From IMG/VR virus record IMGVR_UViG_3300035183_000076, positions 1 through 24,220 of that record: a stretch of DNA of 24,220 nucleotides. The stretch is one strand, 5' to 3'. Position numbers and translations under genes: made by a program. The notes beneath the pieces were generated by a model that ran no database searches, was not told where the DNA came from, and was given only the letters and a program-made list of their open reading frames with translations. Of this stretch, positions 485 to 7,768 are shown one piece after another (position 1 is the stretch's first letter; each line of letters begins with the position of its first letter). The stretch comes from a virus.

Positions 485-1287
485 GACACCACTTGCTGAG
501 GATGTATTTAGAAGGAAATATGCACAGGGGCCTAACGACACCTGGGATGCTCTTGCTGAGAGGGTTGTTGAAGATGTCTGTGGGACTAGGTGGGGAACTG
601 AACACAAGCTGATGTCAGATTCCGACAGGGAGGCTCTTGTTCAGGCCATCAAGGAATTCAAATTCATTCCCGGCGGAAGGTATCTTTACTATGCCGGGAG
701 ACCGCTGAAGTATTTTAACAACTGCTATCTTCTTCGTGTTGAGGAAGACACGAGGGAGGAATGGAGCAATGTAGTATGGCGGGCAATGTCATGTTTAATG
801 ACAGGTGGTGGGATTGGAATTGACTATAGTATCGTCAGGCCATCAGGAAAGCCATTACAGAGGACTGGAGGAATTGCATCTGGCCCAATTCCATTGATGT
901 ATTGTGTCAATGAGATTGGTAGGAATGTGATGCAAGGAGGTTCAAGAAGGTCAGCTATCTATGCTTCTCTTAACTGGAAGCATGAAGATATCGATGCCTT
1001 CCTTGAAGCGAAGAACTGGCATACTCAGGAACTTGGCTTGGTGTATTCAGGAAGAGATGGTACCAACAGTTATTACACAGTAGCTGATGCAAAGTTTGCT
1101 GATTTCAATTATCCTGCTCCGTTGGATATGACCAACATTTCAGTGAACTATGATGATGCTGCTCTTGTTGGTGGTCTGGAGAACAACAAGGTATTCCTGA
1201 AGAATTGTTATCAGGCATTGTCAACAGGGGAGCCAGGATTCAGCTTCAATTTTGGAGACAAGCAAAAAGAAACCCTTCGGAACGCGT
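462..1287 (+). CDS. nrdJ: Class II (B12-dependent) ribonucleotide reductase, exon 1
   Basis: This is the N-terminal coding exon of NrdJ; the full gene is join(462..1287, 2059..2930), 565 residues. The enzyme reduces ribonucleotides to deoxyribonucleotides using a thiyl radical generated from adenosylcobalamin, supplying precursors for phage DNA synthesis. Exon 1 holds the family's FIPGGRYLYYAGR segment, the first redox cysteine (Cys88 in FNNCYLL), the MTGGGIGIDYSIVRPSG region and the GEPGFSFNFG segment. It ends in Asn274-Ala275 plus the first base of the Cys276 codon, the start of the N-x-C-x-E active-site motif. ATG 462 has AGGA 7 bases upstream. Without splicing the frame runs into the intron and stops at 1311-1313, giving 283 residues with eight foreign C-terminal residues and no catalytic cysteine. 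Confidence 0.93.
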
Positions 1288-2058
1288 TAACTTTCAGTAG
1301 CGCCCTACACTAGTAATAGTGTTTGAATAACTAACCTAAAAACAGGGGAAGTCCAGACCGGATAATCCTGTGCCAATTCTGTATAGAAAGGTGCAACGAC
1401 TATGAGTATAAACGAAAAGCAACTTAGCAAACTACTGTACTACTTTACCTCTTTCGATGGTGGTATTTATGAAAGTGGTAAAGATTGTAAGTTTGTTATG
1501 AATATGCGGGCAGAGAATGCCGATTACATTTCGTGGGTAGAAAATACTCTCAATAATTTCGTAGAGACTTCTAAACATAATGTAATCCAACGAGGAAATC
1601 GCGCTCCTCTGGTGTGTTTAACGTCAAAGTCACATCCCAAGTTTACTGCTATTCGGCAAAGGCTTTATTTGCCAGATGGAAAGAAGGTGCTGGATCCACA
1701 TGAACTATCACTGATGGATTCAGAGGCGTTAGCCATTGTGTTCATGGCTGATGGAGGAACTACCTTAGACAAAGGAAAGTATCCAGAAATCAAGCTACAC
1801 ACAAAAGGCTATAGCTACTTTGACAACCTGGCTCTAAGTAAAGCCATCTATGAAAAGCTCAATATCAGGACTACTTTACAAAGACATTATCAATACTGGC
1901 ACTTAAGAGTAAAGACGGCTGATTTGGAGCTATTCATCAAGACAGTTAAACCACACATTTTACCTAGCTTTTCGTACAAACTCGAACGGTTAGCCCCAGT
2001 TTATGACTGGGTGATGATATAGTCTGATCTCCATAGGAATATGGAGTTAACAAAAATG
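1288..2058 (+). ncRNA. Group I self-splicing intron in nrdJ
   Basis: 771 bases. The borders come from the protein: joining 1287 to 2059 restores N-A-C-T-E-V in frame. The 5' exon ends in T and the intron ends in G, as group I splicing requires. P1 can form between exon GCGT (1284-1287) and GCGC (1300-1303), with a U-G wobble at the splice site. P2 is a hairpin, ACACTA with loop GTAA (1307-1322). The P4/P5 region near 1350-1375 follows the phage td-like layout. GGTGCAACGACTA (about 1390-1402) and GATATAGTC (about 2016-2024) match conserved R and S elements, with P7 as GACTA/TAGTC. P9 is a 7-bp stem with a GGAA loop (2029-2046). The peripheral loop encodes a homing endonuclease. P3, P6 and P8 were not fully resolved by eye. 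Confidence 0.9.
1402..2022 (+). CDS. LAGLIDADG homing endonuclease encoded in the nrdJ intron
   Basis: 206 residues, in a different frame from nrdJ. Two LAGLIDADG-type helices are visible: a degenerate LLYYFTSFDGG (about 11-21) and a clearer LAIVFMADGG (110-119), each contributing one acidic residue (Asp19, Asp117) to metal binding. The two-motif layout fits a monomeric enzyme like those in organelle and phage group I introns. It would cut intronless nrdJ alleles near the insertion site and drive intron homing. The ATG lies in the 5' strand of P7 and the TAG stop in the 3' strand of P7, so coding and ribozyme sequences overlap. A weak AAAGG sits 10 bases before the ATG. The frame is intact, so the enzyme is probably functional; maturase activity is possible but not shown. 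Confidence 0.87.
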   Translation: MSINEKQLSKLLYYFTSFDGGIYESGKDCKFVMNMRAENADYISWVENTLNNFVETSKHNVIQRGNRAPLVCLTSKSHPKFTAIRQRLYLPDGKKVLDPHELSLMDSEALAIVFMADGGTTLDKGKYPEIKLHTKGYSYFDNLALSKAIYEKLNIRTTLQRHYQYWHLRVKTADLELFIKTVKPHILPSFSYKLERLAPVYDWVMI

Positions 2059-2930
2059 GCACAGAAGTTACATCAGAAGATGATAGTGATGTCTGCAATC
2101 TTGGATCCATCAATATTGGTTCTATAGAAACACTGGAAGAGTTCAAGGATATAGTTATACTAGGAACAAAATTCCTTGTCTGTGGCACGCTTCGGGCACA
2201 CCTACCTTATGAAAAGGTGTACAAAGTTCGAGAGAAGAACCGTAGGCTTGGGCTTGGCCTTATGGGCATTCATGAATGGTTACTCAAAAGGAATCAAAGA
2301 TACGAAGTAACCAATGAACTGCACAAATGGCTTGCCGTATACCGAGACTATTCCCGTAAAGCAGCAGATGAGCATGCAGATCGCCTATTCGTAAGCAGGC
2401 CCGTTGCTTGTAGGGCAATTGCTCCCACAGGAACAATTGGTATCCTTGCTTCAACTACCACTGGAATAGAACCGCTGTATGCCGTAGCCTACAAACGTAG
2501 GTATTTGTCTGACGGTACTCGGTGGAAGTATCAGTTCGTTGTCGATGCAACGGCCGACCATTTGATAAAACACTACGGGATTGATCCAGACAAGATAGAA
2601 ACGGCCTCAGATTTGGCAGAAGACTATGAGCGAAGAATCAAATTTCAGGCAGACGTTCAAGATTACGTTGACATGTCAATATCCAGCACCATCAACCTTC
2701 CTTCTTGGAACACAAGAGAAGACACGGAAGATTACGTCAAAAGATTTGCTGGCACGCTTGCCAAGTATGCTACACGTCTACGAGGATTTACTTGTTACCC
2801 GGATGGAAGTAGAGGAGGTCAGCCAATTACCAAAGTAGATTACAACGAGGCGATAAAACACCACGGGGTGATCTTCGAAGAGAATGATATCTGTGATATA
2901 ACAGGTAAAGGAGGAGTTTGCGGGGTATAA
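2059..2930 (+). CDS. nrdJ: Class II ribonucleotide reductase, exon 2
   Basis: C-terminal exon, residues 276-565 of spliced NrdJ. It starts with the last two bases of the Cys276 codon, followed by T-E (Glu278, the general acid/base partner in N-x-C-x-E). The second redox cysteine is Cys288 in DVCNLGSIN, pairing with Cys88 of exon 1. A PTGTIG loop at about 398-403 corresponds to the substrate phosphate-binding region. The C-terminus carries Cys554 and Cys563 in CDITGKGGVC, the swinging-arm pair that re-reduces the active site. The length fits the short phage form and all key residues are present. The stop is followed at once by a strong terminator hairpin. Without splicing, translation could start only at an internal codon such as GTG 2217, giving an inactive fragment. 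Confidence 0.93.
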
Positions 2931-3796: not shown

Positions 3797-6700
3797 TTAT
3801 TTACCTACATAATCAAGGAATTTACGAACTCCAATTGGTGTTTTGGCACCAAGTTGAAGGCGTTCCAGTTTGGTAGTCATACGATTAATGGCAGCTTCCC
3901 CAATCATCCTTTCAAGTTGTGGGAAATCACCATTAATTTCATAGTATTGTTCAATCAGTTCAGGAAGTTTGTCAGCAGAGCCTAACATGGCAGTGCGCTT
4001 GATTTTATCGGAAAGCTCTGTCACTCGCTTGCTTGTTTCTTTCTCTTGCGCTGAACTGTAGTAATCAAGCTCTCTTACGATACCTTCTGGCAGACTGTAA
4101 AGATTGAATTTGCGTAAGAGATTCTCTCCCTCCGTGCGTGGGTATACTCCCTGTAGAGGATCTCTTGATTTAGTACCCATTACACCGCCTTCTGGTAGTT
4201 TTGGAGAGAATACATCAGAGTTTGCCTCATATAGTCCTTGGAATGCTCTTGGCAGCATTGCTCGTTTGCCCAAAGCAACGCTAACCGGATCTTCAAGATC
4301 AGTTACCATTCCTGCGATGTCTTTTGAACGTTGCATGACATCTCCCATGAATGGTAGTAATCCCTCGAAGGTAGGATCAATTATAGCTCCAGTATCGAAT
4401 CTTCCTGATAGGTTGATACCGGTTGCTTTGGAGATAGCGCCGTGAGTTATCCATGACAAGTCAGGATTTTCAAATGCAAGCTTTGCCAATTCATTCCTGA
4501 TGGAGTAGTCTTTTACTTTTGCCCATAGATCTGTTGGCAGCATTTTCTTGATGAATTCCCATGCTGCATCCACGGTGGCAATTCCGTAAGCACCTCTTGC
4601 TCCAGCCAAGGTAAGGTTAAGCATCAATGCTGTTGTTAATGGGAGATAGTCACCTGTTTGTACACCATGCTTTCCAAGGGCATAAAGTTGGTTAAAGATG
4701 TTTACTTTATATGTTTGTAGCGTGGATAGTGCTGTTCCTAATGCCCCCATTCTGTTGAATAGCGGAGCACGCTCTGATCTCCTATAGTCAGCCATTGACA
4801 GCTTGGTAAGTTCTTCCGCTTTCTGGAACATTTCCATTTCCATGCCTTTGAACTTACCAGACTCATGCAGATGATGTACGAATGACATGAAGGTGTATGC
4901 ACGTGTGAGTTGCTCAACCGATGTCATGTTAAGTGCTGCCAGTTTTTCAGCCGCAGCAACCCCAGCAGGCAGAGAAAGCTCTGCAACATCTGACAATGGA
5001 GTGATGCTGATTACACCATTATCTACTGCATATTTACTTGCAAGATATCCTATTTCTGATGAGAATGTTCCTTTTCTATGATAGTTATCGAGGAACAATC
5101 CTATGGAATCCATCATTGATTTGGATAGAGTAGAAACAGGATTAAAATCATATCCCTCTTTTAATAGTTTTAGATGCCATGGCATCGTATTCATAGGCTG
5201 AGTTAGTGATACAGCAGTAAACCCTGGCTCGAAAAAGCCAAGAGTAAATAGATAGAAAAGACGGCGTGGAATGTCGATAATCTTTGATAGAGAAGATCTG
5301 CTTACACCAAGAGCTTTTGCGATCTCTCCTTCAATAGCGGAAAAGATCGGCTTTTCTCCAAATCCAAGCCGATTCTTCATGTATTCCTGTGCGATTTTGA
5401 TTGCATTCTGATGGAGTTTTTGAAGGTTTTCATCAGAGAAGACTTGCTTGGCTTTCTGCACAGCCGCCTGATCTTCTGCCCATTTAAATGCATTCTCTAT
5501 GTAACTTACCTGCTGTTTAAGGAATTCGATGGCATCATTCCTGCTCCAAGGACGATCTCCAATGAATCCTCGAATACCGGCTTTATGTTCAAAGTGCTTC
5601 GACTGAGCCAATTCATTGAAGCCAGTGGCAGCAACATAATCCTCGTAAATGGATTTAAGGGTTTCTACACGAGGATCGTTCCTGTCTAGTACTTGCAGAA
5701 GTTCATAGTAACCAGCTTCTGCTTTACTTGAGGTTAGTGGATTCTTTGATCTCGAATAAGTAAGTTTTGACTTTTTGAGATCAATGTCATCGAAGTTTTT
5801 CTTTATGTATTCGAAAGCCTTCTCTGCTCCCCACCGTGTTTGGGCAGCAATCCACCAGACAAGCTTTCCATCGTTTGTGTAAACAGGAATTCTCCAATCG
5901 CCATTCCACCGAGAAGCGAAGTATGCTTCAAGGCGTGTCAATGGCTTTTTGCCCATCGCTATCAGGGCATTGTTTTCTGCTTCGTATGCCCTGTCAAAAG
6001 CTTCCCGAAGCTTACTGTAGGCGGCTACTACTTTTGGATTAGCTCCTGCTTTCTGAAGTGCTTCTGGTCCATATTGTTTGCCTTCTTTGAATTCCTTCAG
6101 AATAACATCAACAAGAAGCTTTAAGTCCTTTTCAGATCTTCCAATTGCTTTAATACTTTCTACAACAGGGTCTGCATATTTTGTTATACTGTACTGAGCA
6201 CGTTTTTCAGCATTGTCAGCCCATTGAACTACGGCAGAAATGATTGGATTCTTCTTTATTTCTGCCATCATGGCTCCGCCGCCAATCAGGGCAACTTTAT
6301 CTGAAACTGGATTTGATTTCAAAGCCTCGTTGATTACAGTTTCAACAGGGACGTCTTTTGGAATAAGGGCATCATTTACACTGGAATAAGGAAGGATTTT
6401 CTTATATGATTCAAGCTGTGTAATATCCTTTTGTCCAGTAAAAACAAATAGATCTTTTGCTTTGCCAATAAGATCTGAAAGTTTCTTTAATCCTTCTTCG
6501 AAAACCTTGGGGTCGATAGCACCCATCTGCTTTTTGAAAGCAGCAATTTTATTTGGATCCCATTTTATTTTTGGAATTTCTGTTTCTGTTGTTGTTGGGT
6601 TTATTTCTCCAGATTTTCTGATACCACCGGGATATTTAAGAGATGGAATATCTCCTTCATAAACAGAGCCATAAAGTCTTCGTAGTCCGGGAGCAAACTG

Positions 6701-7768
6701 ATATGGATACATACCATATAGTTTCATGAATTCTGCGAATTCATCCTGTAATTTGGCAAGTGCTTCGGTATTTCCTTTTTCTTTATATTGTTCTGCTTTT
6801 GCTATATACTCATTGATCTTTTCAGAAACTTCTGGAGAATTCAGTACTTCTTGTCTTAATGGGAAATCTATGGTTGGAACTTCCGCTGCCATACCTTGCA
6901 CAACTTTTCCAGTATCTGGATCGAGGTAACGAACACCACCATCATCAACTGGATATTTATCTTTATCAAGAAGTTCCCATTGTAATTCCTCTGGTTTTTC
7001 TGTTACTCCACGAAGTTCTGGGAATTCAACACCAATGGCATTTCTTCCTCCATACTGCTGTCCATAGACTTTCTGTTTATCTATGGCAATTTCTTCTGGA
7101 GTAATTGTGTGCTCTGGTTCAATTTTATCAAGATTTTCAAGAATCTTGGCATTCTCGTCCAGTTTTGCTTTAGGTTCTAGATTCTCTTGTTTTGTTTTAA
7201 GTTGCTTTTCTAGTGCCCTTTTACCAGCACCAAGAGGCATGAAATTCAGAAGGGTTTCTGCTGCAATACCGGCAGCGAGTTCTCCTTCTGATCCACCGAT
7301 TGCGCTTCCGATTTCTCTTGCTTTTTCAATTGGGTACTGAAATACGTCGCTAAGAGCTTGTGTATATGCAGCACCACGTTCTGTCTTTGGTTCTACACCA
7401 AAGAACTTGTTCAAGCTCTCTTGAACGTACTTTTGTTGTTGTGCAGCAGCATCAATTCCTTGCCCGCTAATAGCAGCCCCAGCACCTACCAATCCACCAG
7501 CAACGTAGCCCGGCATTTGTCTCAAAAGAGTACTACCAGCTTCCAGCAATCCTTGCATTTCTTCGGGCTGCTGATGAAGTTGCTGCTTAAACTGATCCAT
7601 AGGAGAAAGCTGTGCTTGCTCCGGTTGCTGCTGTTGCTGTTGTGGTTGAGAAGGTTGCTGCTGTTTCAGTGAATTATGATATTGATTGGCCCACTTCCAT
7701 GCAGTGATTTCATCCGGGGCATCTACATCATAATCAACACCGTCAACTGTAACTACCCACTGATTCAT
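3797..7768 (-). CDS. Large virion protein, probable DNA-ejection/internal core protein
   Basis: 1323 residues, the largest gene here. It begins with a short domain (MNQWVVTVDGVDYDVDAPDE) often found at the front of large phage virion proteins, followed by a Gln/Pro-rich linker (about 34-55). Small-residue hydrophobic stretches follow (GYVAGGLVGAGAAISGQG; GIAAETLLNFMPLGAG; VALIGGGAMMAEI), which could insert into or cross a membrane. The rest is mostly helical with a mixed domain near SRWNGDWRIPVYTNDGKLVW. No lysozyme or transglycosylase motif was recognised. Size, position after the tail genes and two other helix-rich virion genes just upstream all fit the role of T7 gp16-like ejection proteins. 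That role is inferred from position and composition, not shown by homology. Confidence 0.75.
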   Translation of the reverse strand: MNQWVVTVDGVDYDVDAPDEITAWKWANQYHNSLKQQQPSQPQQQQQQPEQAQLSPMDQFKQQLHQQPEEMQGLLEAGSTLLRQMPGYVAGGLVGAGAAISGQGIDAAAQQQKYVQESLNKFFGVEPKTERGAAYTQALSDVFQYPIEKAREIGSAIGGSEGELAAGIAAETLLNFMPLGAGKRALEKQLKTKQENLEPKAKLDENAKILENLDKIEPEHTITPEEIAIDKQKVYGQQYGGRNAIGVEFPELRGVTEKPEELQWELLDKDKYPVDDGGVRYLDPDTGKVVQGMAAEVPTIDFPLRQEVLNSPEVSEKINEYIAKAEQYKEKGNTEALAKLQDEFAEFMKLYGMYPYQFAPGLRRLYGSVYEGDIPSLKYPGGIRKSGEINPTTTETEIPKIKWDPNKIAAFKKQMGAIDPKVFEEGLKKLSDLIGKAKDLFVFTGQKDITQLESYKKILPYSSVNDALIPKDVPVETVINEALKSNPVSDKVALIGGGAMMAEIKKNPIISAVVQWADNAEKRAQYSITKYADPVVESIKAIGRSEKDLKLLVDVILKEFKEGKQYGPEALQKAGANPKVVAAYSKLREAFDRAYEAENNALIAMGKKPLTRLEAYFASRWNGDWRIPVYTNDGKLVWWIAAQTRWGAEKAFEYIKKNFDDIDLKKSKLTYSRSKNPLTSSKAEAGYYELLQVLDRNDPRVETLKSIYEDYVAATGFNELAQSKHFEHKAGIRGFIGDRPWSRNDAIEFLKQQVSYIENAFKWAEDQAAVQKAKQVFSDENLQKLHQNAIKIAQEYMKNRLGFGEKPIFSAIEGEIAKALGVSRSSLSKIIDIPRRLFYLFTLGFFEPGFTAVSLTQPMNTMPWHLKLLKEGYDFNPVSTLSKSMMDSIGLFLDNYHRKGTFSSEIGYLASKYAVDNGVISITPLSDVAELSLPAGVAAAEKLAALNMTSVEQLTRAYTFMSFVHHLHESGKFKGMEMEMFQKAEELTKLSMADYRRSERAPLFNRMGALGTALSTLQTYKVNIFNQLYALGKHGVQTGDYLPLTTALMLNLTLAGARGAYGIATVDAAWEFIKKMLPTDLWAKVKDYSIRNELAKLAFENPDLSWITHGAISKATGINLSGRFDTGAIIDPTFEGLLPFMGDVMQRSKDIAGMVTDLEDPVSVALGKRAMLPRAFQGLYEANSDVFSPKLPEGGVMGTKSRDPLQGVYPRTEGENLLRKFNLYSLPEGIVRELDYYSSAQEKETSKRVTELSDKIKRTAMLGSADKLPELIEQYYEINGDFPQLERMIGEAAINRMTTKLERLQLGAKTPIGVRKFLDYVGK

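Follow-up and report, generated by a model that had tools for sequence, protein, structure and literature searches.

The nrdJ gene analyzed here, which encodes a phage ribonucleotide reductase (RNR), very probably carries a mobile group I intron within the codon for its radical cysteine, and this intron belongs to a lineage that has spread among RNR genes, probably by homing. The sequence is IMG/VR record IMGVR_UViG_3300035183_000076, positions 1-24,220; the window refers to this entire stretch of 24,220 nt, and all nrdJ and intron features described below are on its plus strand. The roseophages CRP-3 and CRP-212 would be relatives of the bacteriophage that carries this gene.

An nrdJ-like RNR is present in the window in two pieces, one at 462-1313 and the other in a frame that runs to 2930; a 206-aa open reading frame (ORF) lies between them. 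Excision of positions 1288-2058 (771 nt) joins exon 1 (462-1287; 275 codons and the T of the Cys276 codon) to exon 2 (2059-2930; the GC of this codon through the stop) and results in an open 565-aa frame, in which Cys276 lies in an N-A-C-T-E motif. If unspliced, exon 1 reads ...RNALTFSSALH and then reaches a stop. Spliced in this way, the protein shares 65% identity with the intact CRP-3 NrdJ, and two sibling viruses, L004 (97% amino acid identity) and L005 (96%), have an uninterrupted ...AAYGCGTGC... sequence; both comparisons are gap-free at the junction. An earlier note on this DNA had placed the junction at 1287/2059, splitting the Cys codon into T and GC, and had suggested alignment with intronless relatives as a check. 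The spliced frame and these alignments support that placement, and the check did not refute it. Downstream of nrdJ, positions 2957-24220 contain minus-strand genes, including a GH108 endolysin, large virion-type proteins, a capsid and a tail-fibre S74 chaperone, and this order (nrdJ followed by opposite-strand genes) resembles that of CRP-3. No tRNA was detected in a tRNA scan of the window.

When compared with the nearest solved structures, Cys276 aligns with Cys322 in the N-P-C-G-E motif of the B12-dependent RNR of Thermotoga maritima, in agreement with the proposal in the same note that the insertion point is the catalytic-cysteine codon. Similarly, C88 aligns with T. maritima C134 and C288 with C333. 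We take Cys276 to be the thiyl-radical cysteine of NrdJ, and C88 and C288 to be its redox pair. The protein matches the class II RNR barrel domain (PF02867), with both the N-x-C-x-E cysteine and the redox cysteine pair present, and its best NCBIfam match is NrdJ_Z (TIGR02504, 1.8e-65, below the 399.95-bit cut-off of that model); such family membership suggests an adenosylcobalamin-dependent enzyme. Of 74 close NrdJ relatives that were sampled, just 3 carried the intron, and its spread within this group has therefore been modest.

RNR inteins are also mobile LAGLIDADG elements located at RNR active-site codons. That the window insert might itself be an intein was ruled out, as the reading after exon 1 meets stops beyond the junction and the insert is out of frame. 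A putative in-frame intein of 288 aa, with a LAGLIDADG-like motif, is located directly before Cys88 of nrdJ in L004 (4140-5003), and also in L005 and L039; all three lack the intron, and two of these carriers are 96-97% identical to the window NrdJ. A Pfam/NCBIfam search with this putative intein gave no match. Such elements resemble the intron in the nature of their mobile component and in their preference for active-site codons, but they splice as protein and occupy another site.

The insert is confirmed as a group I intron (1288-2058), predicted to be self-splicing, by Rfam matches to its two halves, by the intronless siblings and by covariation. The Rfam group I model (RF00028, Intron_gpI) matched the window at 1278-1491 (32.9 bits, E 1.9e-6) and 1878-2046 (29.1 bits, E 2.8e-5). 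At the gathering threshold (50 bits), the window search gave no match; the intron appears as two sub-threshold pieces, as the endonuclease gene interrupts its match to the model. Thus, the window copy has the P1-P9 helices of this family and differs in being interrupted and below the gathering score, whereas homologous introns pass this score over the whole intron (L099, 58.6 bits; L096, 51.8 bits).

We aligned 17 related introns, with the ORF cut out, to a hand-built structure of 10 helices (P1-P9), in which P3 is a pseudoknot. P1 (1284-1303) pairs exon GCGU(UA) at 1284-1289 with (UA)GCGC at 1298-1303 and places a U1287-G1300 wobble at the 5' splice site. The P2 hairpin (1307-1322; 1307-1312 with 1317-1322) has a GNRA-type loop and double changes in 6/6 pairs. 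The 5' strand of P3, CUAACC (1331-1336), pairs with GGUUAG (1988-1993), which is inside the endonuclease reading frame, with double changes in 5/6 pairs. P4 (1343-1347 with 1366-1370) and P5 (1352-1354 with 1360-1362) together span 1343-1370, and both covary; P6 (1372-1374 with 1390-1392) and P6a (1377-1380 with 1385-1388) span 1372-1392, and P6 covaries. The core is completed by P7, formed by GACUAU (R, 1398-1403) and AUAGUC (S, 2019-2024), by the covarying P8 hairpin (1995-2011; 1995-1999 with 2007-2011), also within the endonuclease frame, and by the P9 hairpin (2029-2046; 2029-2035 with 2040-2046), with double changes in 6/7 pairs.

Over the 17 introns, 97.5% of cells in this structure were paired, versus 76.0% for shuffles and 34-43% for slid controls. 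Changes on both sides that preserved pairing occurred in 33 of 51 pairs, and the covariation score was 0.629 versus 0.192 for the control; these differences in pairing and covariation exclude chance as an explanation for the fold. P7 is present and invariant in all 17 introns and hence offers no covariation test. The U-G pair of P1 at the splice site was seen in 17/17 aligned introns. In a larger set of 33 related introns, every member had the exon-terminal U, a 4-bp guide match and the intron-terminal G, while exon and guide changed together (GCGU/GCGC, GCUU/GAGC, GCAU/GUGC, CCGU/GCGG, CCUU/GAGG, GUGU/GCAC and CCCU/GGGG). The group I identity and the P1 of GCGU/GCGC, with exon-final U and intron-final G, had both been proposed from the window alone; the crossing P3/P7 core and the covariation now substantiate the former, and co-variation of exon and guide around a constant U-G the latter. 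The intron probably belongs to subgroup IA, as judged by the location of its ORF between P7 and P3.

This ORF (1402-2022) codes for a 206-aa, I-SceI-like LAGLIDADG homing endonuclease, of a lineage that annotators label "hypothetical protein". It matches LAGLIDADG_2 (PF03161, E 2.9e-20), and a profile search detected I-WcaI (5e-15) and I-SceI (2e-11). An AlphaFold2 model (mean pLDDT 92.8) superimposes on I-WcaI (6x1j) with a TM score of 0.77 and on I-SceI with 0.76. The protein is a single chain with two motifs, whose D19-G20 and D117-G118 are invariant over 28 sequences. It shares the single-chain LAGLIDADG fold of I-SceI and I-WcaI, but only 17-21% aligned identity, and it differs from them in host gene, target and its phage host. 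A Shine-Dalgarno-like AAGGUG (1388-1393), putatively functional, is located 8 nt before the AUG, in the 3' strand of P6/P6a. The AUG (1402) lies on the 5' strand of P7 and the stop codon UAG (2020-2022) on its 3' strand; endonuclease translation and ribozyme folding should therefore be mutually exclusive. Overlap of an ORF with the intron core is a known arrangement (PMC3984707).

We considered whether nrdJ might instead be a decaying pseudogene, disrupted by an insert that has lost the ability to splice. In favor of this reading, hairpins that follow P9 in most relatives are absent from the window ribozyme. On the other hand, both exons are open and conserved as far as the C-terminal CGV, the helices remain paired through compensatory change in the 17 introns that include this one, and divergence between siblings is similar in the intron (97.0% identity) and in the exon flanks (93-94%). 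Decay is thus very improbable, and a spliceable mobile intron accounts better for these data.

The distribution of this intron was analyzed by searching viral contigs with endonuclease alignments, with the presence of an RNR gene not used as a criterion. This search identified 35 distinct contigs, and additionally one bacterial metagenome-assembled genome (Desulfuromonadaceae) and a few phage isolates. For 33 introns, including that of the window, both ends could be resolved with protein-anchored junctions, and every one of them was in an RNR large-subunit gene at the radical-Cys codon. The insertion point was between T and GY in 30 of these, just after TGY in two (SPA01 and L117) and just before it in one (L146). 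The host RNRs fall into eight clusters at 45% identity; identities between clusters are at most 44% and mostly below 30%, and the motifs include NACTE, NPCSEI, NPCVEIG, NPCAEQS, NPCHEV, NPCCEI and NPCGEI, as well as NLCQE in isolate SPA01. The SPA01 RNR adjoins a beta subunit and has its best family match to class I NrdE-prime/NrdA models; the other clusters tested by family model best matched B12-dependent RTPR or NrdJ_Z. In Pseudomonas phage SPA01 (L002, OP875100), the split nrdA is annotated as three hypothetical proteins, which correspond to a single intron-interrupted RNR.

Site specificity of the endonuclease lineage is not absolute. Leaving aside distant Bacillus phage matches, three exceptions were found. 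In L003 (Pseudomonas phage HHBS10_2) and L108, related endonucleases occur in nrdB, at a site that does not involve a radical cysteine; a jump from a large- to a small-subunit gene is a candidate reading of these introns. The nrdB interruption follows FFELNVHAP and may be close to an iron-ligand motif. The third, L134 (3001-3597), is an endonuclease relative with no ribozyme sequence, just upstream of an apparent RNR start, and may be a free-standing partner, as in collaborative homing. Second group I introns were also observed in two of the RNR genes. In L086, nrdJ is interrupted twice, with the second intron (approximately 6081-6921; RF00028, 52.5 bits) containing another ORF and located in an APTGSIGILAS block, some 131 codons downstream of the Cys276 intron. 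In L103, the second intron (4713-4947, 96.4 bits) follows the radical-Cys intron by only about 41 nt and is located in a Cys-Asn-Leu block that holds the other redox cysteine.

The earlier note had also argued that a homing site at this point cannot drift. At the protein level this held, with Cys276 retained in 71 of 71 intronless close NrdJ relatives sampled and the same codon used in all eight RNR clusters. At the DNA level it did not, since synonymous positions do drift: the codon before Cys may be GCC, GCT, GCG or GCA, and the guide sequence is altered to match.

Occurrence of the intron at an identical position in all lineages would also fit shared descent, i.e., ancient vertical inheritance within RNRs with many losses and no movement between genes. 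Several observations are at odds with this scenario. The introns of L096 and L099 share 81.5% identity in a gap-free alignment of 816 bases, whereas their 300-nt exon flanks are 41-44% identical and the RNR proteins approximately 28%. With 10 host labels mapped on the endonuclease tree, 16 label changes are required, and for each of the four largest RNR clusters, AU tests rejected grouping of its endonucleases in a single clade (p at most 1e-4). In addition, L073 and L111 have RNRs in the group of the window but endonucleases from a different clade, and a short exon flank, described below, appears to have traveled with the intron. We therefore regard purely vertical inheritance as very unlikely; the endonuclease trees reject co-descent with RNRs and, at the level of sequence, establish horizontal movement of the intron lineage. 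Such alleles are illustrated by two cultured phages, Pakpunavirus SPA01, which has the intron, and vFB297, which lacks it. Exon 1 of SPA01 is 96.7% identical to the vFB297 sequence, and the joined exons match it at 114 of 120 bases, including 60 of 60 downstream, with all differences upstream of the junction. One of these differences is TGC to TGT, and P1 can therefore form with a terminal U.

Traces of homing were sought in five near-identical nrdJ alleles, three with the intron (window, L065 and L066) and two without it (L004 and L005). Eleven sites separate the two sets exactly, and seven of them fall at spliced positions 831-882 (2063-2114 of the window), no more than 56 nt after the junction. 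The other nine ways of dividing these alleles 3/2 account for 79 sites, only one of which is within 827-900 (Fisher p 3e-7), and the remaining nrdJ sequence recombines irrespective of the intron. A co-conversion tract left by DNA repair appears to explain best these intron-tracking sites in exon 2. Within the cluster of the window, GCG precedes the Cys codon in 9 of 11 intron-containing alleles versus 11 of 71 intronless alleles (Fisher p 2e-5, uncorrected for relatedness of alleles).

The fit of P1 to the host exon in 33/33 introns could also be expected if the intron spread mainly by RNA, through reverse splicing into any RNA that offers the four guide-paired bases and subsequent reverse transcription and recombination, with the endonuclease being incidental. 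However, a 4-nt guide permits many sites, yet the unbiased endonuclease search returned essentially one codon; the endonuclease remains intact, with Asp-Gly invariant in both motifs; and the exon-2 flank that accompanies the intron is predicted by DNA repair and not by RNA insertion. Accordingly, we assign this route only a small probability, and endonuclease-driven homing remains our preferred explanation.

From these sequence data, we infer the following series of events. The intron would splice itself out by the standard two-step guanosine mechanism, utilizing P1 with its U1287-G1300 wobble and the terminal G2058, and would thereby restore the radical-cysteine codon. The monomeric, I-SceI-like LAGLIDADG endonuclease that it encodes would cut intronless RNR genes at the Asn-x-Cys-x-Glu codon block, with cleavage of intronless nrdJ DNA expected near AAYGCNTGYNNNGAR. 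Repair would then copy the intron and a short exon flank into the cut gene, and the guide sequence would re-match the local codons after each move. The lineage could have moved among RNR genes with protein identities down to approximately 20-30% because this block is nearly universal in large subunits. We are evenly divided over a more specific proposal, that the endonuclease reads an Asn-(Pro/Ala)-Cys-x-Glu block (AAY-SCN-TGY-NNN-GAR) with tolerance for wobble positions, and drives the intron directly between RNR clusters and even classes whose genes have hardly any other sequence in common. If true, the RNR radical cysteine would be a universal docking codon, and synonymous drift would offer no escape from the parasite.

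Taken by itself, the window intron is one more mobile group I intron of phage RNR genes, a kind already known. Self-splicing introns are found in Twort nrdE (I1 and I2), T4 nrdB and nrdD, and SPbeta nrdE and nrdF, and several have homing endonucleases (PMC3653736, PMC2988022). These introns, including those of the Bacillus phage SPbeta, are likewise near functionally critical codons of phage RNR genes (PMC3653736, PMC2988022), but the genes of Twort, T4 and SPbeta belong to class I or III, whereas the lineage of the window shares the exact radical-Cys codon across clusters. No RNR motif was found in the part of the Twort genome (L156; a record without functional names) in which nrdE was sought. 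The usual endonucleases of RNR group I introns are of the HNH and GIY-YIG types (PMC8772380, stated of R2 genes), in contrast to the LAGLIDADG type in this lineage. What appears to be new is a lineage that specializes in the RNR radical-cysteine codon: in the open-licence literature searched, we found no description of an intron type that keeps to a single active-site codon in eight clusters, with class I-like and class II RNRs among them.

These findings are relevant to surveys of viral RNRs. Where a survey accepts only intact frames that contain the active-site cysteine, as in a virioplankton study (PMC12918982), intron-bearing genes would be expected to drop out, since it is this codon that the intron splits.

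More generally, this intron family seems to aim at a stretch of the gene that is closed to evolutionary change. To our knowledge, the idea that homing introns target unchangeable codons has been based mostly on scattered single cases. Here, a single lineage could be traced across eight RNR clusters at the same codon, with its jumps measured, its guide re-matched and a co-conversion-like tract in its flank. Thus, the idea becomes quantitatively testable, including in the cultured pair of SPA01 and vFB297.
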